From contig NZ_CP117834.1 of NCBI RefSeq assembly GCF_028735875.1, positions 1,848,001 to 1,912,000 of the forward strand: DNA of 64,000 bases, in the 5' to 3' direction. Source of the DNA: Shouchella hunanensis (lineage in GTDB: Bacteria; Bacillota; Bacilli; Bacillales; Bacillaceae_D). Made by a program: the position numbers and the translations under genes. The notes beneath the pieces were generated by a model that was given only the letters and a program-made list of their open reading frames with translations, had not been told where the DNA came from and did no database searches. How positions within the stretch are numbered: position 1 is the first letter of the stretch; every line of letters begins with the position of its first letter. Positions 11,977-22,643 of this stretch are shown piece by piece.

Positions 11977-12016
11977 CATTTGTATTCTCCCCATTAAGCC
12001 TTGGAGAATACAAATG
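11977..12016 (-). promoter_or_regulatory. Leader hairpin upstream of the EamA gene
   Basis: A perfect 14-bp inverted repeat (CATTTGTATTCTCC at 11977-11990 and its complement at 12003-12016) with a 12-nt loop. It overlaps the end of the leader peptide frame. A competing pairing GGAGA/TCTCC can form between its 3' arm and sequence nearer the EamA start. There is no T-run, so it looks like a translational or antitermination switch rather than a terminator. Confidence 0.55.
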
Positions 12017-12050
12017 GTACATCATTTTCAAAAAGCGGTTTATAAAACAT
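11994..12050 (-). CDS. Putative 18-residue leader peptide of the EamA gene
   Basis: ATG at 12050 is preceded by a strong AAAGGAGG and reads MFYKPLFENDVPFVFSKA before TAA. The last codons form the 5' arm of the leader hairpin. A short, well-initiated frame ending inside a hairpin upstream of an exporter resembles stalling leaders of antibiotic-response genes. That role is inference; no codon enrichment for a single amino acid is obvious, apart from four phenylalanines. Confidence 0.5.
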   Translation of the reverse strand: MFYKPLFENDVPFVFSKA

Positions 12051-12206
12051 GGAATTACCTCCTTTATTGAATACTCCCACCATAACACAGAATGTTAGTA
12101 AGATTATTAATAAAATATGCCTTTATCTTTTCGATATTCGCTTGAAGAGAAAAACCTTTGTAAAGAAGAGTTCGAGTGGCTTCTCTCTTCATTAGCATCC
12201 TTTTTT

Positions 12207-12252
12207 TGTTACATTTGAGCTGCAATACGTATTGAAAACGGCAAATGTAACA
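12207..12252. promoter_or_regulatory. Nested palindromes upstream of the RiPP precursor genes
   Basis: TGTTACATTTG (12207-12217) and CAAATGTAACA (12242-12252) form a perfect 11-bp inverted repeat. Almost concentric inside it is the 12-bp palindrome CAATACGTATTG (12223-12234). It lies about 140 bp ahead of the first precursor start. It is a candidate operator for the HTH-TPR regulator encoded nearby. Confidence 0.5.
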
Positions 12253-12391
12253 GGAAAAACAAAGACTGCATTCGATTTGAAAAATAATTATCTAAAAAAT
12301 TAGAAAATGTATTTTATAATACATTCTTAAACTAGTATACATTGTATTCTAATGAAGAAGAAAAGAAGAAACCAAGAGAGGAGGCCCTAAC

Positions 12392-12532
12392 ATGGAAAAC
12401 AAAAAAGTAATCAATTCAAATGATATCAATGTGAAATTAGAAGACTATAGCGTTAAATCATCAACAGTTATGCAAGAAATGGAAGCATCCATCTATGCAT
12501 CAGTAATTATTCGACCAGAGCTAGCCAACTAA
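12392..12532 (+). CDS. RiPP precursor peptide, copy 1 of 4
   Basis: A 46-residue peptide starting MENKKVINSNDINVKL and ending IIRPELAN, with no cysteine. The N-terminal half is acidic and leader-like (INVKLEDYSV); the C-terminal part has Ser33 and Ser37 in EASIYASV. GAGAGGAGG precedes the ATG. It heads a run of four identical genes followed by a LanB-type dehydratase, which is why I call it a modified-peptide precursor. A leader boundary after Ala32 would resemble thiopeptide leaders ending in E-x-x-A-S; this is inference. Confidence 0.85.
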   Translation: MENKKVINSNDINVKLEDYSVKSSTVMQEMEASIYASVIIRPELAN

Positions 12533-12594
12533 ATTTGCATGAGCATGACCAGCCTTTAAAATCAAAAACCCCAAAAAAGAGGAGTTGCCCTAAC

Positions 12595-12735
12595 ATGGAA
12601 AACAAAAAAGTAATCAATTCAAATGATATCAATGTGAAATTAGAAGACTATAGCGTTAAATCATCAACAGTTATGCAAGAAATGGAAGCATCCATCTATG
12701 CATCAGTAATTATTCGACCAGAGCTAGCCAACTAA
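12595..12735 (+). CDS. RiPP precursor peptide, copy 2 of 4
   Basis: Encodes exactly the same 46-residue cysteine-free peptide as copy 1, with nucleotide sequence that looks identical. AAAGAGGAG lies 9-10 nt before the ATG. The frame is open upstream through the spacer to 12535, but that extension is only spacer sequence and would bypass the ribosome binding site, so I start at the ATG. Confidence 0.85.
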   Translation: MENKKVINSNDINVKLEDYSVKSSTVMQEMEASIYASVIIRPELAN

Positions 12736-12797
12736 ATTTGCATGAGCATGACCAGCCTTTAAAATCAAAAACCCCAAAAAAGAGGAGTTGCCCTAAC

Positions 12798-12938
12798 ATG
12801 GAAAACAAAAAAGTAATCAATTCAAATGATATCAATGTGAAATTAGAAGACTATAGCGTTAAATCATCAACAGTTATGCAAGAAATGGAAGCATCCATTT
12901 ACGCTTCAGTAATTATTCGACCAGAGCTAGCCAACTAA
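12798..12938 (+). CDS. RiPP precursor peptide, copy 3 of 4
   Basis: Same 46-residue product. It differs from copies 1 and 2 only by silent changes near the end (Ile, Tyr and Ala codons at about residues 34-36). The ribosome binding site and spacer match copy 2. Keeping the protein constant while codons drift indicates selection on the peptide. Confidence 0.85.
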   Translation: MENKKVINSNDINVKLEDYSVKSSTVMQEMEASIYASVIIRPELAN

Positions 12939-12999
12939 ATTTGCATGAGCATGACCAGCCTTTAAAATCAAAACCCCAAAAAAGAGGAGTTGTCCTAAC

Positions 13000-13140
13000 A
13001 TGGAAAACAAAAAAGTAATCAATTCAAATGATATCAATGTGAAATTAGAAGACTATAGCGTTAAGTCATCAACAGTTATGCAAGAGATGGAAGCATCCAT
13101 TTATGCATCAGTAATTATTCGACCAGAACTAGCAAACTAA
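13000..13140 (+). CDS. RiPP precursor peptide, copy 4 of 4
   Basis: Same 46-residue product, with the largest number of silent changes (for example aag for a Lys codon, gag for Glu, gaa and gca near the end). Its spacer is one base shorter and has TTGTCC in place of TTGCCC. It is followed by a strong hairpin and then the dehydratase gene. Confidence 0.85.
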   Translation: MENKKVINSNDINVKLEDYSVKSSTVMQEMEASIYASVIIRPELAN

Positions 13141-13164
13141 GCTTGGATCTATTTTCTAAAAAGG

Positions 13165-13196
13165 TTGTGTGGTGTGCTTAGATCCACGCCACACAA
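13165..13196 (+). terminator. Attenuator hairpin between precursors and lanB
   Basis: TTGTGTGGTGTG (13165-13176) pairs with CACGCCACACAA (13185-13196): 12 bp with one T-G wobble and an 8-nt loop, then TTATTTTATATT. Placed between abundant precursor genes and their modifying enzyme, a partly effective terminator would set the usual high precursor-to-enzyme ratio. Confidence 0.7.
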
Positions 13197-13208
13197 TTAT
13201 TTTATATT

Positions 13209-13233
13209 CGTATACGTTATAAATAATACGTTA
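13209..13233. promoter_or_regulatory. ATACGTTA direct repeats ahead of lanB
   Basis: ATACGTTA occurs at 13212-13219 and again at 13226-13233, a spacing of 14 bp; the first overlaps the palindrome CGTATACG. The same 8-mer is found in the regulator/exporter intergenic region at 20196, and its core ATACGT in the palindrome upstream of the precursors. Candidate regulator sites or a second promoter. Confidence 0.4.
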
Positions 13234-13287
13234 AAAAATGGGAAAAAGAAATGAACAATTGGATTTAACTCATAAGGAGGAGTACGT

Positions 13288-16152
13288 ATGATTAAAAGAA
13301 AAGCCGCATTAAAATTCTCTGCTGTGCGCAAATTGTTTACTGAAGAAGAAGATGAGTATTTGCATGAAGTGATAAGAGACTCGGCTTTCTTAGAAAGGAT
13401 CTTATTGAATAGTACTCCCTTATACAACAAGTTAAAAAAAATTGTTGATGAAGATAGAAAGATCGATAAAAAAACAAAAAAAACCGTAGTGAACTATTTA
13501 TTAAGAATGGCGGCGAGACCGCAGCCTAACCGTATTAACTCAGGAATCTGTATGAATGACAGTGACCGTTTTCATGGACGGACCGAATTAAAACAGGTAA
13601 GTATATCTTTGGAATGGGAACAAAATGTAATAAGAAAACTCGAAAATTCTATTCTTACGTTTTCCAACATAAAACTGACGTTAAATCCAAAACTATACGA
13701 GAAAGATCAACAGTTTTTGTTAGAGAAGTTTTCAAAAGAAAACACGGCCTACATCTATTTAGACAGTTCCAGTTTCTTGAAAGACTTGTTCGACTCCTTA
13801 AGATCAACTATTTATAGTCAGACACTATTAGATCAATATCAAGACGATACTCAAAGAGCTCTAGTGCTAGGAGTTATAAAAGAGCTACTAAAATCAGATG
13901 TTATAAAAACTGAACTTTCTACTTATTCTGTCAATAGAGATGCTGATGCTTTTTTAGAAAACCTTTTAAACTATAGTAACTACGATGTTGATTTAGTTTC
14001 ATCTATAAAAACGATTAAAGAATTAGTACATAAATATAGGGAATTGGAAGTTGGCAAAGGGATAGACGTATACAAAGAGTTAATTTCGAAAATGGCGGCA
14101 TTGTGCAAAAGTTCCTCGTACTTACTTATTGATTTGTCTATATACGATCGTTTGGAGAATAAAGAACAAATTAAACATGCCCTTGATAACGGAGAATCCC
14201 TAGAATTAATGACGTTTTTCGATAAACATCAAGGAATTGACTGGAACAACTATTACAATAAATTTATAGGGAAATATGGTTTTTACACTAGGGTTCCTTT
14301 ACTTGAGATGATAAATAAAGACGCTGGGCTTGGGTTTATGCAGCACCTGTCTTTTGATGATAAAAATAAAAAAATAGAAGAATACGTCCTGAACAAGATA
14401 ATGCAGTGGCATATAGGAAGCGATAAACCAATGCTTACCCTGACTGAAGAAGACTTTTTATCGATTAAAGCATTATACGGGAGAAAAGGGAACGGCAGGG
14501 TTCCTATTTCATTTGATTGCAAGATTGTGGAGAGTAAAGCTGGATTTCTTTTACCTCCAAACGCGTTTTCTTTCCCTCGTTATTCTTTTACAGGCCGCTT
14601 TTCGTCTTGTAAGGAAAGTAAAGGAGAGAATTCCCACGGCTATTCAGAAATAAGCTATATTAGCAATTATTTTAAAGATGTCGGTTTAACTTATCGATCT
14701 GAGAGCAATACGTTTATCGATTGCATCGGTCACACTGATCAATTAAAAGGGAGAATTCCCTTGAATGAAATTGATATGGTTGCCCATAAGAATCGCCTTC
14801 ATATGATCCACAAAGATCAAATAATTTATCCTGTATCAACTCATTTGTTCAGTTATCGGAACTTTAATGAACATCCTGCTTTAGTCTTTCTAAGTGAATT
14901 TTCTAGGTACTGTTTCGAGTACCCGAATAACTTTCCTATCGAAAATCTCTCTTATTTGGAATATATCCCCAGGATTGAATACAAAAGTCTCATTGTGTCA
15001 CCTGCTAGAATGAATATTAAATTTGAGCATGAAAGTACGAAGATGGAAAGAGTAAAGAAGATTAACGACCTCTTGAATAAATACAACTTGAATCAAAATA
15101 ATTATATTTATTTTTTGGAGGGAGATAAAACGCTTCCTGTTCCTCTCAATAATGAGGAGGCTATGTTATTTTTGGAAAGTTGTATAAACAAGAAGGATCA
15201 GCTTGTACTGATGGAAGCGCCGGAATTAGATGAATCGACTGAAGAAGTCAGCGATTGGATCTACTCATCAAAACAGTATAACCAAAATCAAGGAACATTT
15301 GATCTCGATACGAAGCAAATCGTACATGCACAAAAATTAGAAGAAAAAATAGATCCTTGTATAAATTCTTATCATTTGTACTACAGAAGTGGTAAAAGAG
15401 AAAAAGTGGAAAACATGATTTTGGCATTGAATGAAAAAGATCACCTGTTAGAAGATGTATTTATTGTGAATTATATTGATGAGAATAAAAAAGAACATAT
15501 GCGTGTACGATACAAAAAAAATCTCGAAAAAGAGAGTAAATGGGAAGAAATCTTATCATCAATGCTTTCATCAGGGTGTTTATACGATTTCCAAAAAACG
15601 TTGTTTCGGCCTGAAGTAAACAGATATGGTGGAAATGGACTGTACCATCTCGTGTATAAATTGTTTTCAGTTGAAACAAAAGTAATGAATGTATTGAAAC
15701 AAGCTTACTCACCTTACAATGAAAGTGAAAGTGCATTGTATCTTTCTAGCTATGTATTATATGGATTGCTTGGGAAAGATACAAATCTATTGTTCAAGTA
15801 CATTGAAAACAGTATAGAGAAAGAGAGCAAATATGTTAAACCATTTGCAAAAAAACGCACGAATTACCGTGGAATCGTGTTACAAGCGTTAAAGGATTAC
15901 AATGAAACATCACATCCACTGCTAATTGAATACAATCAGTTAGCAGCAGACTTGTTGATAGCAGCTAAAAGCCAACTGTTATCAGATGATTACTTGTTTT
16001 ACGTTGTACAAAGCATCGTTCATATGGCCATGAATCGTCATTTTCCTTTTAAGAGAGAACTAGAAATAGAAACCAATCAATATATGAGGTTCTCATTTTC
16101 AAACATTCGCTATTACCTTCAGGAAGGAGTATTAAAAAATGGAGCATTATAG
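13288..16152 (+). CDS. Full-length LanB-type peptide dehydratase
   Basis: A 954-residue lantibiotic-dehydratase homologue. The glutamylation domain shows RMAARPQPNRINSG (73-86, the family's R-x-x-x-RPTPFG-like motif) and VPLLEMINKDAGLG (about 335-348). The C-terminal SpaB_C elimination domain begins near 688 and keeps H737/R739/R741 (HMRVRY), E776 and R779 (EVNRYGG), and H912 with N916-R917 (HMAMNR), corresponding to NisB elimination residues. It should use glutamyl-tRNA to dehydrate Ser/Thr in the Cys-free precursors. GGAGGAG stands before the ATG. The next gene overlaps its end by 14 bp. Confidence 0.9.
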   Translation: MIKRKAALKFSAVRKLFTEEEDEYLHEVIRDSAFLERILLNSTPLYNKLKKIVDEDRKIDKKTKKTVVNYLLRMAARPQPNRINSGICMNDSDRFHGRTELKQVSISLEWEQNVIRKLENSILTFSNIKLTLNPKLYEKDQQFLLEKFSKENTAYIYLDSSSFLKDLFDSLRSTIYSQTLLDQYQDDTQRALVLGVIKELLKSDVIKTELSTYSVNRDADAFLENLLNYSNYDVDLVSSIKTIKELVHKYRELEVGKGIDVYKELISKMAALCKSSSYLLIDLSIYDRLENKEQIKHALDNGESLELMTFFDKHQGIDWNNYYNKFIGKYGFYTRVPLLEMINKDAGLGFMQHLSFDDKNKKIEEYVLNKIMQWHIGSDKPMLTLTEEDFLSIKALYGRKGNGRVPISFDCKIVESKAGFLLPPNAFSFPRYSFTGRFSSCKESKGENSHGYSEISYISNYFKDVGLTYRSESNTFIDCIGHTDQLKGRIPLNEIDMVAHKNRLHMIHKDQIIYPVSTHLFSYRNFNEHPALVFLSEFSRYCFEYPNNFPIENLSYLEYIPRIEYKSLIVSPARMNIKFEHESTKMERVKKINDLLNKYNLNQNNYIYFLEGDKTLPVPLNNEEAMLFLESCINKKDQLVLMEAPELDESTEEVSDWIYSSKQYNQNQGTFDLDTKQIVHAQKLEEKIDPCINSYHLYYRSGKREKVENMILALNEKDHLLEDVFIVNYIDENKKEHMRVRYKKNLEKESKWEEILSSMLSSGCLYDFQKTLFRPEVNRYGGNGLYHLVYKLFSVETKVMNVLKQAYSPYNESESALYLSSYVLYGLLGKDTNLLFKYIENSIEKESKYVKPFAKKRTNYRGIVLQALKDYNETSHPLLIEYNQLAADLLIAAKSQLLSDDYLFYVVQSIVHMAMNRHFPFKRELEIETNQYMRFSFSNIRYYLQEGVLKNGAL

Positions 16153-17140
16153 TATTAAATGTTATGTGGTAGAACCATCTCAAGAATTAAAAGCTACCAT
16201 AAAAAAACTTATAAAGAATTACAACTTTATGATTGATAAAGGGTGGGAAAATGGCTATCACTTGCACCTTAGAGGCACGATTAGTCGCAGCGATTTATCG
16301 TGGATGTTAAAAGAGCTTAAAGAAGGCGTGAATGGTTCTTTAACAAGTTTTGATGAGGCTGAATTTAGTAGAAACTATCAATCTACAGCAACTATATTAA
16401 GAAATGCTCACCCGTTTAATCCTATTTTTAAGAACGAAGTTATCGTTAAAGAAGAGGTTCTTATTTTTAATGAGGAATTAGAAGATGAATTGTTTAAAGA
16501 GTCGAATAAAATTTTCGATCATTATTTTAGCGAACATTACTTTGAAGAAAATGCTTTGCATCCAATTATTGCTGAAATAATGAAGTTTCATCATAAAATG
16601 AAAGAATATGAACAACCAGAGACTTATGTTGTTGAACATCAAGCTTATAATTGTCACCTCTCACACTATGTTGCGTTTATTAATCGTTTAAATGCTCAGG
16701 ACAAAGAACTAGTAGAAAACGATTTTCAACGGAGGTTTGAAAGCGATTCGAAGGAGGGCTTATTGCATTTCGATCTGTCTCCAACAGCATTAACGGAGAA
16801 TTTACTCGGTTTCTTTTATAAATTACGCCCTTTAATAGAAAGGAAAGATCTTAACTTCTATATGCCTTTTGATCGTTCTCATATTGATGAAAAGATTGAA
16901 TATGCTTCCAAAAGACATCAAGTTACTTTTGCAAAAGAGAATATGCATCTTTATTTATACAATGAGGTTCTAATTGCTAACAGATGGGTCACAAATGCTT
17001 TATACAAAAAGTTGTTACTTTTAGGTTTAACCAATATGGATCGCTTCTACATGAATTACGTGATCGCTCGGTTAAATTTTTCGGAAAAGGAATTGTCAGA
17101 TTATCCAGTGCAAAGTCTGAATAAGGCCTCCGTGACATAG
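16139..17140 (+). CDS. Stand-alone SpaB_C/thiopeptide-type domain protein, possible [4+2] pyridine synthase
   Basis: A 333-residue protein with an N-terminal segment WENGYHLHLRG (about 36-46), related to the HLRLR strand of the 'thiopeptide-type bacteriocin biosynthesis' domain. Unlike the elimination domain it lacks the ERYGG and HMxxNR motifs. Its length and lack of dehydratase residues recall TbtD/PbtD and MroD pyridine synthases, which join two dehydroalanines and expel the leader peptide. That function is inference. GGAAGGAG lies 8 nt before the ATG, inside the lanB end, so translation is coupled. A leader-binding partner or second elimination protein is the alternative. Confidence 0.6.
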   Translation: MEHYSIKCYVVEPSQELKATIKKLIKNYNFMIDKGWENGYHLHLRGTISRSDLSWMLKELKEGVNGSLTSFDEAEFSRNYQSTATILRNAHPFNPIFKNEVIVKEEVLIFNEELEDELFKESNKIFDHYFSEHYFEENALHPIIAEIMKFHHKMKEYEQPETYVVEHQAYNCHLSHYVAFINRLNAQDKELVENDFQRRFESDSKEGLLHFDLSPTALTENLLGFFYKLRPLIERKDLNFYMPFDRSHIDEKIEYASKRHQVTFAKENMHLYLYNEVLIANRWVTNALYKKLLLLGLTNMDRFYMNYVIARLNFSEKELSDYPVQSLNKASVT

Positions 17141-17177
17141 AGGTGTATTGACAATAAAATAGATTATTGTAAGCAAG

Positions 17178-17228
17178 CCGTCAAGGGATTGGAAGCAGAT
17201 TAGACCAGTTCCAGACGGTATTTTTTTA
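17178..17228 (+). terminator. Probable terminator of the RiPP enzyme genes
   Basis: CCGTC ... GACGG with inner pairing GGAA/TTCC forms an imperfect long stem followed by TATTTTTTT, 40 bp after the stop codon. Confidence 0.5.
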
Positions 17229-17427
17229 TGTGTAAGAGTCCTTTTTCTCTTACCATTGGTCTATAAGTTTAAAAACTTAACTAGCTGTTAGTCTACTTGT
17301 GTGAGTGGTTAATTAAAGCCTTCATAAAAGCACTTTACGTGTGTTTAATTTACAACAATTTAACCTCTTCTTATTAATCAGAATTTAAAGATACAATTCA
17401 TGTACCAACTAATAAAGGAGAGCGATT
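17228..17427 (+). promoter_or_regulatory. Non-coding region before the signal peptide gene
   Basis: About 200 AT-rich bases that must hold the promoter of the peptide/regulator operon. I see no convincing -35/-10 pair and no copy of the ATACGTTA motif, only a weak TTTACGTGTG at about 17334. Confidence 0.4.
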
Positions 17428-17556
17428 ATGATGAAAAAATTCATGTTTAGTGTAATGGTAAGCTTTTTGTTAGTAGCTGGAGGATCAACTCTTGATGTAG
17501 CTTCTGATGAATATCAACCAGGTCCATTCGGTGATCCAGAGGGTCCTTTAGTTTAA
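17428..17556 (+). CDS. Secreted 42-residue peptide, putative pheromone precursor
   Basis: ATG at 17428 (another at 17431) follows AAAGGAGAG. The product has a short basic N-terminus (MMKKF), a hydrophobic stretch to about residue 19, and a small Pro/Gly-rich tail DEYQPGPFGDPEGPLV. This is the build of Phr/NprX/PapR-type exported signalling peptides. A HTH-TPR regulator of the RNPP type lies 1.3 kb downstream on the other strand. Two bases separate it from the next gene. It could instead be a second bacteriocin precursor. Confidence 0.65.
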   Translation: MMKKFMFSVMVSFLLVAGGSTLDVASDEYQPGPFGDPEGPLV

Positions 17557-17558
17557 TT

Positions 17559-18155
17559 ATGAACCATCAACAGTTTTTAGTAGCAACAAGTGAACTAACG
17601 CAAAAAGTATGCAATAAGCACCCTATTTCTACTCCATGCGTGATTTTTAAAGAACATCAACAAAACCAAGTGAAGTTGATTGACTACACGATTGATAAGG
17701 ATGTATTAAGTCAAATCATATTTGATGTCTTAAGGTCTCTTAGAAAAGAAGAATGCGGGTTACCTATAATTGTTGCTACAGAAAATAATGTGATTAACCG
17801 CATGGAATCTGCTGGGGTATATTATGTAAATGTCCTGAAGAATGAATTTGTTTACTTGTTTGGGAGAGAGGATTATAAGCGTTTTTTTGAGAGTCTGACA
17901 GTCATTCAAGAAAGATTAAACCTCAAGGGTTCTTTACTTATTAGCTTTTTAACTGACAGTCCTAATCAATGTTCTGTGAATGAAAAACTGTCTGATCAAT
18001 TGAATGAATTAATCCATCTACATGGTGATCTTAATTGCGAAAGCATTTCGATCGAACATCCAGAAGTCATTACCTTCCCATTACTTAATACTAATTTCAA
18101 CCTTAGACTACTTCATTGGATTAAAAAAAAAGGTGGAGTTGAACATGTTAAATGA
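17559..18155 (+). CDS. Protein of unknown function (198 aa) in the RiPP region
   Basis: A soluble mixed alpha/beta protein with five cysteines scattered along the chain and no membrane segment. I do not recognise a family. It starts two bases after the peptide gene and overlaps the Crp/Fnr-like gene by 11 bases, so the three are translated as a unit. There is no good ribosome binding site, so initiation should depend on coupling. It may process or sense the peptide or take part in immunity; nothing in the sequence decides. Confidence 0.75.
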   Translation: MNHQQFLVATSELTQKVCNKHPISTPCVIFKEHQQNQVKLIDYTIDKDVLSQIIFDVLRSLRKEECGLPIIVATENNVINRMESAGVYYVNVLKNEFVYLFGREDYKRFFESLTVIQERLNLKGSLLISFLTDSPNQCSVNEKLSDQLNELIHLHGDLNCESISIEHPEVITFPLLNTNFNLRLLHWIKKKGGVEHVK

Positions 18156-18750
18156 GTGTAAAGAAATTCTTTTAAGTGACTATCAAATTGTCAGTATGGA
18201 GCCAGGGTATGTCTATTATCTACAAGAAGGAACTTTGCAATTATGGGAATTACACAATGATGGGGTAGAAATACTCATTAATGTTTTAAAGCCAGACGAT
18301 GCTGTAAGACTGCCAGATCCTAGCATCAATAGTGTATATGAGTTTAGAACGAATAAAGAAAAGGCACAGTTAATTTTATACAATTGGGATTCTCTCCACA
18401 GAATAGAGGAGAAATACTATCTACTGAATAAAGTGGCTACCACAACAATGAGAACAGAAATGATTAATCACATTAAAAGAAAGAAATTTGTGAAAAATAG
18501 GTTGGTGTATTTATTGCAATTCTTGTCCAAAGAGTTTGGCGAAATTGAAAACCAGTATTACATTCTAAACATTCCGTTGACCCACGAACATATATCCAGT
18601 TTGATCCTCTCTAGTAGGGTAACGGTTACGAAACTCTTAAATGAATTAAAAAAACAAAAGGTCATTACGAATGTTCAAGGGTTTCTTTATTTAAGAAAAG
18701 ATCTCATTGATCGTGTAGGCAGCTACGATTGCTCTTTAGAAGTTGTTTAA
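18145..18750 (+). CDS. Crp/Fnr family transcriptional regulator
   Basis: A 201-residue protein with an N-terminal cyclic-nucleotide-binding-like beta-roll (about 10-110) and a C-terminal winged helix with LTHEHISSLILSSRVTVTKLLNELKKQKVI at about 146-175, the usual Crp-type recognition helix. No Fe-S cysteine cluster or cAMP signature is evident, so the signal is unknown. AAAGGTGGAG precedes the ATG, which overlaps the preceding gene. Its position suggests control of the RiPP genes. Confidence 0.82.
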   Translation: MLNECKEILLSDYQIVSMEPGYVYYLQEGTLQLWELHNDGVEILINVLKPDDAVRLPDPSINSVYEFRTNKEKAQLILYNWDSLHRIEEKYYLLNKVATTTMRTEMINHIKRKKFVKNRLVYLLQFLSKEFGEIENQYYILNIPLTHEHISSLILSSRVTVTKLLNELKKQKVITNVQGFLYLRKDLIDRVGSYDCSLEVV

Positions 18751-18823
18751 TAATAGGTACGTTTACCACTATTCATAAGGACTACCAAGACAGGTACAGG
18801 TAGCTTGGACAACATTTCACCAT

Positions 18824-20119
18824 TTACACACTAGAAGAATGGTTAAGTGCCATTAAGTAATACTCGGAAGATTTTTTGTAAAATTTTAAATCAAAGTAGT
18901 AATGAGCTAATTCTTCCGCCATTTTCTTTATTAGTATGGAATGGCTATCTTTTTCAGCACGTTCAATCGTACGTTTTAATAATTTTTCGTAGTTAAGAAA
19001 ATCACCTCTTTGTTTAAAAACAATGGCTTTAATGACATGTAATTCAATGTCTAAATAACTCATTTGGTGTTGATTGACCAAATGTAAGCATGTATCTAGG
19101 AGGTCTTTGACTTCTGTCCATTCTTTTTTTAAGAGTTTTATTTCTAATAAGCCTTTCAGAACGTATACTTTACTAACATCACTTTCGAGGTTAGCTAAAC
19201 TTTTATTGTAATAAACAATGGCTTCGTCATATTTCTCGAGCTTTTGAAACACTTTACCAATATTATACGTGATCATTGTTAATAAACGATTCTTATTTTT
19301 TACATTTAAGTCAGCTAAATATCGTTCAGTCTCTTGTAAAGTCCGTAGTGATTTGTCGTATTGTGAAAGCAAATGATATTGAACGCCAAGGGTTACCAAT
19401 ACATTTACTATGTTTTCGGTATCACCTAATTTTAGGAAAAGATCATAAGATTTCTTACAATAGTAGAGGGCTACTGATTTGTCTTCCATTATTCGTTGTT
19501 TGACTAAGCTAATATTATAATAGAGTTTGGCACTTTCAATAGTTGTGTTATCGACGTTTAAATTTTCTGATATTGAATAATGGTAATGGGCTTGGGAGAA
19601 ATTCTGTTTGGAGTAAAAATACTTCCCTAATATATTATGAAGCCTAAAATAAATCTGTTGTTCGTTAAGGTCTTTAAACTCGGTGTTATCTTTTACATCA
19701 ATTAAGTTTATGTTAGAACGATAAATAGTGTCTGCATCATTCATTTCACCTTTTGTCATTGAATGATTTAATAAGACTGAAAACACTCTAATGAGGAGAG
19801 AAGGTTGAAGAAATTCTAATAGAGACATTCTAAGGAGAGCTTCCTCTTCGTTCGATAACGATTTAGATTCTTCCTCTACTTTATTGAGTACAGTTACAAT
19901 CTTGTCTTGTAGACTAGTCGAACTGTTATGATCCATTATTTCGATAGAGACGTCTAACCTTTTCGAAATCTTATCTAGAAATTGTTTTGATGGCTTCGTC
20001 TTTCCATTTTCAATTCGACTTAAATAGGCAACTGAACAAATGCCTTCTACTAATTCTGATTGAGAAAGTTTTTTATAGATCCTTAAATGTCTAATTTTTT
20101 CACCTATGTATATACTCAT
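18824..20119 (-). CDS. HTH-TPR (RNPP/NprR-like) transcriptional regulator
   Basis: A 431-residue protein. Residues 1-60 form a Cro/C1-type HTH (IGEKIRHLR, SQSELVEGI, YLSRIENGKTKPS); the rest is a run of TPR-like helices (for example YNIGKVFQKLEKYDEAIVYY, LVTLGVQYHLLSQYDKSL). That is the layout and length of NprR, a cytoplasmic regulator switched by a re-imported peptide. GAGGGAAC serves ATG 20119 better than the ATG at 20131. It is divergent from the MFS exporter and convergent with the putative pheromone operon. Confidence 0.85.
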   Translation of the reverse strand: MSIYIGEKIRHLRIYKKLSQSELVEGICSVAYLSRIENGKTKPSKQFLDKISKRLDVSIEIMDHNSSTSLQDKIVTVLNKVEEESKSLSNEEEALLRMSLLEFLQPSLLIRVFSVLLNHSMTKGEMNDADTIYRSNINLIDVKDNTEFKDLNEQQIYFRLHNILGKYFYSKQNFSQAHYHYSISENLNVDNTTIESAKLYYNISLVKQRIMEDKSVALYYCKKSYDLFLKLGDTENIVNVLVTLGVQYHLLSQYDKSLRTLQETERYLADLNVKNKNRLLTMITYNIGKVFQKLEKYDEAIVYYNKSLANLESDVSKVYVLKGLLEIKLLKKEWTEVKDLLDTCLHLVNQHQMSYLDIELHVIKAIVFKQRGDFLNYEKLLKRTIERAEKDSHSILIKKMAEELAHYYFDLKFYKKSSEYYLMALNHSSSV

Positions 20120-20195
20120 TTGTTCCCTCATTTCAATAAATTATTTATTCGATCTATTTATTAAAAATAGGGGGCGTTATTAGGAAGTAGATAAT

Positions 20196-20224
20196 ATACG
20201 TTAACATTTGCAATAAAAACGTAT
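20196..20224. promoter_or_regulatory. Inverted repeat between regulator and exporter genes
   Basis: ATACGTT (20196-20202) and AACGTAT (20218-20224) form a perfect 7-bp inverted repeat 15 bp apart, enclosing AACATTTGCAAT, which resembles parts of the nested palindrome at 12207-12252. Candidate operator for both divergent genes. Confidence 0.45.
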
Positions 20225-20384
20225 CCCCATCCAATTACAGTCGCTTACACACACATTTTGTATAGCTATGTAAATGGAATTATATCAAATAAATTTGGCA
20301 AATAGTAAAGTTTTTGGTTTGTATTTAAATAAAAAGACCTATTTTGACGAAATACTTAGTGAATTGTCTGAATGGAGGGTACAA

Positions 20385-21650
20385 ATGAAGGTAAAATTTG
20401 AGTCGTTTATGTTAGAAAGGAATTTTATCCTTTTAATGATGGGTGTTTTCATCAATGCGCTAGGAAGTGGTGTATACGCAATAGCCGGAATGTTACTAGT
20501 GTTGAGTTTGAGTGGTAGCGTTCTGTATTCTGGTTTTGCTTTATTTGCGATCACCTCAGCAGGTGTACTATCTTTTTTAATTGCACCGTTGGCTAACTAT
20601 TTTAAGTACAAGAACGGGTTGGTTTATAGTAATCTACTAAAAGCGCTTATCCTTTTTACAATCCCTATATTGCACTACACAGTTGGTCTACATGTATGGT
20701 ACGTAATTGGTTTATTGTTTATAACAGCTCTATTTACGCAATTTACGTATCCAATTGAATCAACAATCCTGCCTATCATTGTGGGTAAAGATAATGTGAT
20801 AGCCGCTAACTCCTTTTTGCAAACCATTCGAGAAGCAATGGATATTGCGTTTCTCGCAGGCGCTGGAATTCTTATTACATTTACAGGAACCATTCCAGCT
20901 ATCATCATCACAGCTACATGTCTCATACTGGTCACGATAGCCTATTCTTTTTTTAACTTCTTACAACCAGACGTAAAGAGAGATCCTTCTACATCCGTAG
21001 GTTCTGCAGTTCGTACGTACTTTATTGATTTAAAAGCTGGCTTCACTTATATTGGAAACTCTCTTATTCCTAAGATGATTGTTTCAATTGTTTTTATTAA
21101 CCTGGCTATGGTGATTATGACGACTAATTTACCCGCGTTTTCTCTTATGAAAGGTAGTGGGATAGAAGCTTCTTATGGGTTTTATTTAGCGGCTATGTCG
21201 ATTGGAATTATGATTGGAACGATTCTCGCTTCTAAATTAAAACAAATAGATTTCGGTAAATTAATCATCTTTTCTTTTTTCGGCACAGGTGTGATGTGGA
21301 TTGGAACGGCGCTTCTCCCACTTGTGTTCTCCATGATTTTGTTTAGCATTGGAGCTATTTCAATCGGCATAATAAACATTCTTGTCTTTTCATCAATACA
21401 AAGACAAGTCGAAGTCACTTTTATTGGTAGAGTGATAACCCTGATAACGAGCGCAGCTGCTTTAGGAATGCCCATTGGGGCTTTAATAGGTGGAATGCTA
21501 GGGGAGATGTTTGCAACAGAAATACCCATTCTCATCTGTGGGGTTTCCATGATGCTATTTAGCCTTTCTTGGTTAAGTAGTTCTGCATTGCGTAAACTTC
21601 CAAGTATAGACCACGTTAAGCTTTTCCAAGAATCGAACGTTCAAGCATAG
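20385..21650 (+). CDS. MFS transporter, probable exporter of the RiPP
   Basis: A 421-residue major facilitator with about 12 membrane segments, similar in layout to MdfA/MefA-like macrolide and peptide exporters (NFILLMMGVFINALGSG at the first helix). GGAGGG lies 7 nt before ATG 20385; the frame continues upstream to 20274 without a ribosome binding site. It is divergent from the HTH-TPR regulator and the only transporter in the cluster, so export or self-protection is the likely role. No ABC exporter with a peptidase is present. Confidence 0.82.
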   Translation: MKVKFESFMLERNFILLMMGVFINALGSGVYAIAGMLLVLSLSGSVLYSGFALFAITSAGVLSFLIAPLANYFKYKNGLVYSNLLKALILFTIPILHYTVGLHVWYVIGLLFITALFTQFTYPIESTILPIIVGKDNVIAANSFLQTIREAMDIAFLAGAGILITFTGTIPAIIITATCLILVTIAYSFFNFLQPDVKRDPSTSVGSAVRTYFIDLKAGFTYIGNSLIPKMIVSIVFINLAMVIMTTNLPAFSLMKGSGIEASYGFYLAAMSIGIMIGTILASKLKQIDFGKLIIFSFFGTGVMWIGTALLPLVFSMILFSIGAISIGIINILVFSSIQRQVEVTFIGRVITLITSAAALGMPIGALIGGMLGEMFATEIPILICGVSMMLFSLSWLSSSALRKLPSIDHVKLFQESNVQA

Positions 21651-21747
21651 GCTTTATTCAGAAGTTGACAAATGGAACATGAGGACTTGTAGATGACAAA
21701 GTTTAGTTGAAGATTTGCGCTGTCCTTTACGTTTGTTTAAATAAAGC

Positions 21748-21777
21748 AGAGGACATTTCTAAATTGAAATGTCCTCT
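21748..21777. terminator. Terminator between the MFS and SDR genes
   Basis: A 12-bp perfect stem AGAGGACATTTC / GAAATGTCCTCT with a 6-nt loop between two convergent genes. Confidence 0.75.
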
Positions 21778-21791
21778 TAGTTGTAGTTCTT

Positions 21792-22643
21792 TTAATTCTC
21801 TGGGTGTGGAATGGCTTTTTCAGCAGAACGACTTACCGTTTCCCAATCTTTCCATGTCTTTACTTTACTCAATTCATGTTCAATGGCTGCATCAAAGACG
21901 TGACTCCCTAAAATGAGTCTTAAAGGTGGCTTCTCGTTATGAATCAGTTTTAGTAATGCAGTGGCGGCTTCCTTAGGGTGGCTATCTTTACTTTCATCGT
22001 TTTGTGTTTCTAAAAATTCTCGAACAGGATTATATCCTTCATGTATAGTAGTGAACTGCATGTTTGTATATAAATTTGTCCAATATCCGCCTGGCTCTAC
22101 AATAGATACATGAACCCCAAAATGAGAGACCTCTTGTGCTAATGCTTCACTAAAACCTTCTAATGCGAACTTACTTGCACTGTAGATTCCAGTCATTGGG
22201 CCAGCAAGAATGCCTCCTATACTCGATATTTGTATAATGTGACCAGACTTTTGTTTTCTTAGGTGAGGTAAAACAGCTTGGCTAACCCAAACGGCACCAT
22301 AAAAATTAGTTTCGATTTGTTGTTTAATGTCACCCTCAGTAAATTCTTCAACCATTCCCAATACCATGTTACCGGCATTGTTTACCACTACATCAAGTTT
22401 ACCAAAATGATTAATGGCTTCTTCAACAACCTCAAAAACAGATACCCGTTCAGTGATATCCAACTTAACAGATTTAAAGGTAGTTTTATACCTTTTTTCC
22501 AATTCTGTTAATGGGGCTATATTTCGAGCAACTCCGACTACTTTATCTCCTGAGCTAAGTGCTGCTTTCGTAAATTCAAGTCCTAATCCGCTACTTGCAC
22601 CGGTGATAAACCAGACTCTTGGTGTTGATTTGGTTTGTTTCAT
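21792..22643 (-). CDS. Short-chain dehydrogenase/reductase (SDR)
   Basis: A 283-residue classical SDR. TGASSGLG at about 15-22 binds the cofactor; NNAG at about 90, the catalytic Ser in QISSIGG and YSASK (Tyr/Lys) complete the active site. The ARN after the second beta-strand suggests NADP(H). It resembles the group of oxidoreductases acting on ketones or aldehydes; substrate unknown. It stands alone, and the upstream 400 bases hold no other gene. Confidence 0.92.
   Translation of the reverse strand: MKQTKSTPRVWFITGASSGLGLEFTKAALSSGDKVVGVARNIAPLTELEKRYKTTFKSVKLDITERVSVFEVVEEAINHFGKLDVVVNNAGNMVLGMVEEFTEGDIKQQIETNFYGAVWVSQAVLPHLRKQKSGHIIQISSIGGILAGPMTGIYSASKFALEGFSEALAQEVSHFGVHVSIVEPGGYWTNLYTNMQFTTIHEGYNPVREFLETQNDESKDSHPKEAATALLKLIHNEKPPLRLILGSHVFDAAIEHELSKVKTWKDWETVSRSAEKAIPHPEN

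Follow-up and report, generated by a model that had tools for sequence, protein, structure and literature searches.

In a 64,000-nt stretch of Shouchella hunanensis DNA (the window), part of a one-contig genome of 4.06 Mb, a gene cluster at positions 12374-21650 is predicted from its genes to make an azole-free pyritide, a proposal to which we assign a probability of about 0.78. The cluster is best read as encoding an azole-free pyritide pathway of Bacillota that parallels the mro pathway of Micromonospora. It comprises an array of precursor genes and genes for a full-length LanB dehydratase, a 333-aa protein of pyridine-synthase type, regulators, a 198-aa protein and an MFS exporter. A sequence-only reading of the same DNA had already suggested a pyritide-like, ribosomally synthesized and post-translationally modified peptide (RiPP) from a Cys-free precursor and a TbtD/MroD-type enzyme, and this is supported by the gene content, by the placement of the 333-aa protein in the pyridine-synthase superfamily (model NF045556 and profile comparisons), by its conserved residues, by homology of the precursor leader, by sister clusters in which YcaO genes and core cysteines occur together, and by a genome without a YcaO match.

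Precursors, dehydratase and related clusters

The four tandem, Cys-free precursor genes of the earlier reading are present on the forward strand (12392-12532, 12595-12735, 12798-12938 and 13000-13140), identified from their open reading frames (ORFs), their repeat spacing (203, 203 and 202 bp) and codon comparison. They specify identical proteins of 46 aa, MENKKVINSNDINVKLEDYSVKSSTVMQEMEA-SIYASVIIRPELAN, in which residues 1-32 form the leader and SIYASVIIRPELAN (residues 33-46; 12488-12529 in copy 1) is the proposed core, its start taken from an alignment of 12 precursors. All 12 have Ala-Ser at the proposed cleavage point, as does MroA1 at its leader/core break. A terminator-like hairpin of 14 pairs with a T-rich tail (13163-13198, forward strand; fold z of -2.7 for 13138-13290) lies between the array and the LanB gene, and may be an attenuator that gives an excess of precursor over LanB. 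The LanB gene (13288-16152, forward strand) codes for a 954-aa protein with glutamylation and elimination domains, detected by Pfam (Lant_dehydr_N, 1.5e-42; Lant_dehydr_C, 3.6e-12), NCBIfam and alignment to NisB. The elimination residues named in the sequence-only reading (H737/R739/R741, E776/R779 and H912) occur at exactly these numbers, within NisB-aligned segments. By these comparisons the protein would be the LanB-type Ser dehydratase of an azole-free (Mro-type) pyritide pathway, fused rather than split.

Genome mining for the same gene set, which had been proposed as a check, recovered azole-free clusters in S. oshimensis DSM 18940 (locus L003, genome G003) and in a member of another family (locus L019). 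The S. oshimensis cluster has collinear neighbours and a 333-aa protein that is 95% identical, and was the one locus returned by a scan of genome contigs with the 333-aa protein of the window. Between the two species, the 333-aa gene (dN 0.0225, dS 0.159) and the LanB gene (dN 0.0327, dS 0.213) are under purifying selection. Among the precursor genes, four in each species, 16 codons differ, 15 of them synonymously. Proteins of L019 are more distant from those of the window (LanB 54% identity, synthase 58%, TPR regulator 59%, Crp-like protein 55%, 198-aa homologue 36%, MFS protein 73%), and its cores are SYVGSVIIVTK in four of five copies and SWVGSVITIDR in the fifth. Together with SIYASVIIRPELAN they follow the pattern S-xxx-S-V-I-[IT], with two Ser three residues apart, a spacing kept in the window, in all four L003 copies and in all five L019 copies; V-I-[IT] comes after the second Ser, yet is not C-terminal. 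In the L019 array, five of the six amino-acid-changing codons fall within the core (34, 40-43) and both Ser are invariant. No YcaO match was found within the 19-21 kb of either locus.

Nine loci besides the window were compared: L003 and L019, and seven in which Pfam places YcaO near the synthase gene (L006, L007 and L020 to L024). The precursors of the YcaO loci, of which that of L022 was taken directly from the DNA, have a related leader, an MGA-S junction and a core Cys, as in SQGHNSCSVVVTQK and SIGKNSCSVIVQQ. A YcaO gene in the cluster and a core Cys occur together in all seven, and both are absent from the window, S. oshimensis and L019 (3/3), while the leader and a GA/EA-S junction are common to both kinds of cluster. 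This distribution suggests a common ancestry of the window pathway and the thiopeptide-type clusters of Bacillota, with azole genes and core Cys absent together from the former. L006 and L020 to L023 are thiopeptide-type clusters with a fused LanB, YcaO, two conserved genes without a family and a MATE exporter, and their cores predict 20-membered rings if the Ser after the Cys is used; known thiopeptide rings range from 26 to 35 members, according to the portion of PMC7210931 consulted. L024 (8191-18282) is a thiopeptide-type cluster with a split LanB and four precursor genes downstream, with cores such as SIGKLGCCSSIIIR. RRE-like and SagB-like labels for two of the thiopeptide-type genes were dropped, as they depended only on position and motifs and the L006 and L021 copies had no Pfam or NCBIfam match; the Crp-like protein of the window gave a weak blastp match to one such L006 protein (32% over 78 aa, E 3e-4).

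Genome-wide, no YcaO match was found for the window or for L019 (genome G756). Within the cluster, genes for LanC, YcaO, proteases (LanP included) and ABC transporters (LanT) were not noticed when ORFs were inspected by eye and six proteins and one precursor were searched against Pfam, with no dedicated protease search, which agrees with the gaps listed in the sequence-only reading. That reading had also named a LanC or YcaO acting from elsewhere in the genome as evidence that would count against it. The sole LanC-like match in the genome is an ORF of 876 aa (709 read) at about 2.055 Mb, some 185 kb from the cluster, with a kinase-like and a LanC-like part, a layout that suggests a protein similar to class III lanthipeptide synthetases. 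Since the precursor is Cys-free, this protein would find nothing in it to cyclise.

The 333-aa pyridine-synthase-type protein

The gene for the 333-aa protein (16139-17140, forward strand) starts 14 bp inside the LanB gene, so that the coupling described in the sequence-only reading stands, but the label SpaB_C-like does not, the protein having no Pfam match and hence none to Lant_dehydr_C/SpaB_C. With E up to 1 allowed, NCBIfam gives one match, to the pyridine-synthase model NF045556 (E 4e-4, 19.7 bits); eight of nine scanned family members, the window protein among them, match this model at E up to 0.1 (best 1.1e-8). The window and L019 proteins match model positions 252-338 and 245-338, a region that contains H260 and Y289. 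A profile of the three azole-free sequences, compared by hhalign with five pyridine-synthase-type references, gave a probability of 94.9 (E 4e-8, 134 columns); with three elimination-type references the value was 0.4, and with the C-terminal domains of nine LanB proteins 0.3. All 14 aligned proteins have S175, H176, H260 and Y289 in common. In the alignment Y289 falls on the PbtD Tyr for which 8EJY has Ala and 8EJZ has Phe, and it is probably the counterpart of the active-site Tyr that facilitates aromatisation in such a synthase, as described in the part of a review consulted (PMC10880069). These results argue for grouping the 333-aa protein with the thiopeptide pyridine synthases (TbtD/PbtD/TclM) and not with glutamate-elimination proteins; its assignment to the TbtD/MroD superfamily is indicated by profile and residues, not fold, with references of the TbtD/PbtD/TclM type. 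The L031 protein, which matches both NF045556 (8e-43) and Lant_dehydr_C (1.6e-6), was included in the five-reference profile and excluded from the tree, in which L007, L024 and TclM form long branches of unsure placement; the Nonomuraea locus L030 had no part in these comparisons. Sequence searches of the PDB gave weak matches only (best E 0.41 with the single protein and 0.35 with a 9-row profile), and TbtD and PbtD were reached there only by way of Streptomyces proteins.

The family is rare. A profile search detected it in 9 of 397 genomes of the order, the window included, one of them (G674) doubtful (E 9e-4, frame interrupted by stops), and a search with the single protein in 3 of 398 genomes of the class, again counting the window. 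It occurs in 2 of 41 genomes of the window's own family, 1 of 44 of the L019 family and 1 of 3 of the L006 family, and nothing was found in plasmids (tblastn) or viral contigs. The window was the one match when 299 Bacillota genomes were searched with NF045556, so this model does not collect the family.

Predicted product, alternatives and neighbouring genes

In the predicted pathway, LanB would, like others of its family, load glutamate from Glu-tRNA onto Ser33 and Ser37 and eliminate it, leaving two dehydroalanines (Dha). The 333-aa enzyme would then join Dha33, as dienophile, with the azadiene of Dha37 in a formal [4+2] reaction, aromatise the product and expel residues 1-32 as the leader amide, so that no protease would be needed. 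The product would be a pyridine macrocycle of SIYASVIIRPELAN, the canonical monomer being 11-membered with a calculated [M+H]+ of 1474.805. It may be exported by the MFS protein, and a secreted peptide and the TPR regulator would probably activate the cluster in response to cell density. Its pyridine would be the six-membered nitrogen heterocycle that defines pyritides. Ring size follows from our own derivation from the geometry of known pyritides, ring atoms = 2 + 3(n-2), which gives 14 atoms for pyritide A1 and 17 for A2; the Ser1-Ser5 spacing gives a predicted ring of 11, below 14, an implication of Ser33 and Ser37 on which the sequence-only reading had not remarked when proposing a pyritide. 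Rings of at least 14 atoms characterise the known products but do not define the class.

Several results weigh against the azole-free pyritide proposal. In the portions of the published accounts consulted, MroD formed no 8- or 11-membered rings (PMC9247985) and the lactazole enzymes stopped at 14-membered rings (PMC7210931). An 11-membered ring is unprecedented in these two systems, and the cluster would therefore require a new enzyme capability or make a different product, for example a dimer. The NF045556 score of the 333-aa protein is far under the cut-off of 325, which S. hominis TclM does not reach either (68.5 bits), and the model also matches two elimination proteins that Pfam places in Lant_dehydr_C, the 298-aa protein of L024 and S. 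hominis TclL (1.4e-22 and 9.5e-15). For these two reasons the NF045556 match alone is not diagnostic, and elimination and synthase proteins are told apart in this model only by the place of the match, which for the two elimination proteins is positions 1-250 and 1-160. The 134 columns aligned to the five references represent the C-terminal part of the protein only. Compared with two Streptomyces TbtD-like sequences alone, the azole-free group scored a probability of 16.4, and the nine-row family scored 3.3 against one such sequence; the link therefore leans on the intermediates L024, TclM and L031, each of which matches NF045556 more strongly than the 333-aa protein does, and the bridging L024 sequence also matches the elimination references (probability 74.2). 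Identity to the thiopeptide-type relatives is low (26-30% for L006 and L020 to L023, 22% for L007) and the branch is long, so the function of the 333-aa protein may have shifted. An AlphaFold2 model, made from an alignment with L003 only, was poor (mean pLDDT 46, pTM 0.35). Finally, the S. oshimensis genome has a YcaO-type protein (E 3.7e-7; 354-aa frame, G003:C1 3608013-3608567) about 221 kb from its cluster, so the absence of YcaO is true of that cluster and not of the genome.

The shortness of the Ser-xxx-Ser core for a single ring is the reason for considering that the same enzymes might act intermolecularly, giving by [4+2] a cyclic dimer with two pyridines and a 22-membered ring. Such a product would agree with the absence of 11-membered rings from the reported MroD and lactazole products, and for an intermolecular reaction of TbtD a precedent is known from the title of a paper (Bogart and Bowers 2019); an array of four to five precursor genes would also raise the substrate concentration. 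However, the parts of the literature consulted mention no natural dimeric pyritide, the pyridine would, by our own derivation, be ortho-fused to the macrocycle, so that 11 members are not impossible, and RiPP clusters commonly have several precursor copies. On balance we consider the dimer unlikely. Just as doubtful is a diverged, non-cyclising 333-aa protein, with a linear dehydropeptide or other Dha-derived structure as product and a protease supplied from elsewhere. This would account for the long branch, the low NF045556 score and the lack of an 11-membered precedent in the sources cited above, but all four of S175, H176, H260 and Y289 are kept, the gene is under purifying selection and overlaps the LanB gene, the cluster is conserved in two families, and no protease gene was noticed in it (ORFs inspected by eye, with no dedicated search).

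Far less probable still, and already contradicted, is a class I lanthipeptide or linaridin-like cluster that has lost its cyclase: a LanB with both domains would be expected there, but the precursor lacks Cys, a LanC was not noticed among the cluster genes, Pfam finds no Lant_dehydr_C match in the partner protein and the relatives are thiopeptide-type. We give about an even chance to a fuller picture, namely a second, Bacillota lineage of azole-free pyritides that makes an 11-membered macrocycle, smaller than the 14-membered limit of the two studied systems, or else a cyclic dimer, and that is controlled by a pheromone and diversifies its core through multi-copy arrays.

Of the genes downstream of the 333-aa gene, the sequence-only reading listed the regulators and the MFS gene correctly and omitted two others, a small peptide gene (17428-17556) and the gene for the 198-aa protein (17559-18155), both on the forward strand. 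The small peptide (41-42 aa), a proposed pheromone, has a signal-peptide-like start and precedes the 198-aa gene. A like peptide (13360-13485) precedes the homologue in L019, and both carry the motif QPGP[FY]GD. Different small peptides with signal-like starts and a C-terminal PT[LI]PSED are found in L020 (3881-4051), L021 (4017-4196) and L023 (5333-5491), near proteins that resemble the TPR regulator of the window, and the L021 protein matches RNPP_C at 8e-37. The window regulator (435 aa; 18824-20131, reverse strand) has an RNPP-like layout; RNPP_C gave no match to it or to its L019 counterpart, which have HTH and TPR matches only. The 198-aa protein has no family assignment in Pfam or NCBIfam, has homologues in L003 (95%) and L019 (36%), and its gene is kept in both azole-free lineages in an operon-like run with the pheromone and Crp-like genes. 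The Crp-like regulator is encoded by a 242-aa frame at 18022-18750 (forward strand), with a start perhaps nearer 18130, and the MFS transporter, the proposed product exporter, at 20274-21650 (forward strand), with a start perhaps at 20385; Pfam and locus comparison support both. This arrangement suggests pheromone control of the cluster by the secreted peptide and the TPR regulator.

The G+C content is 0.324-0.360 across 12001-22000 and 0.354-0.441 in the remainder of the window. Strain G064, listed as the same species, is without the cluster: its flanks overlap by 6 bp where they join, and of the MFS gene the 3' end is left in place. This reads as loss by deletion between about 12160 and 21472 of the window; an ancestral empty site is ruled out by the persisting end of the MFS gene.

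Comparison with known systems

Almost all pyritides are thiopeptides, and Bacillota thiopeptides are treated as a separate RRE group, according to the parts of two publications consulted (PMC11920963 and PMC12710340, respectively). The only azole-free pyritide pathway we found described, in sources seen in part, is that of Micromonospora rosaria; no Bacillota example was named in the titles and abstract openings of the literature searched, which does not establish its absence from print. If the proposal is correct, a small cluster from another phylum, with four copies of one precursor, two modifying enzymes and no protease noticed, would offer a second starting point for pyridine macrocycles, and its Ser-xxx-Ser core a sharp test of the smallest ring within reach of such enzymes. 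With the YcaO-bearing sister clusters one could also trace how azole chemistry was gained or lost within one enzyme family.

The azoles formed by YcaO in thiopeptides have no counterpart here, the precursor being without Cys and the genome without a YcaO match, and the core Cys and LanC of class I lanthipeptides are likewise missing, the sole LanC-like match lying far outside the cluster. Loci L006 and L020 to L023, and more distantly L007 and L024, resemble the window in their related leader, MGA-S junction and LanB with an adjacent TbtD-like protein, and the LanB is full-length in six of the seven, that of L024 being split. They differ in that they carry YcaO and additional conserved genes and have a core Cys ahead of the proposed second Ser; ring closure at that Ser would give 20-23-membered rings. 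TbtD, PbtD and TclM, of thiomuracin, GE2270 and micrococcin biosynthesis, share the superfamily and the conserved S-H, H and Y positions with the 333-aa protein, but overall similarity is low. The substrates of these three enzymes bear azoles.

The closest parallel is MroABCD of M. rosaria, as described in the portion of PMC9247985 consulted. Both systems have a Cys-free precursor, a cluster without azole genes (no YcaO in the window cluster), LanB-type dehydration of two core Ser (predicted for the window) and a separate pyridine synthase, and in both the leader ends in Ala before the core Ser and hydrophobic residues follow the second Ser. They differ in that the window LanB is one fused protein whereas MroB and MroC are split, and in that the Bacillota azole-free cores have six to nine residues after the second Ser, compared with a C-terminal tripeptide in Mro. 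The window cluster, moreover, belongs to Bacillota, has relatives in thiopeptide-type clusters and carries a pheromone-like peptide gene. Its Ser1-Ser5 spacing (11 ring atoms) contrasts with Ser1-Ser6/7 (14/17) in Mro. On these comparisons, the window pathway would work like the Mro pathway, with a ring spacing unlike that of the known members.

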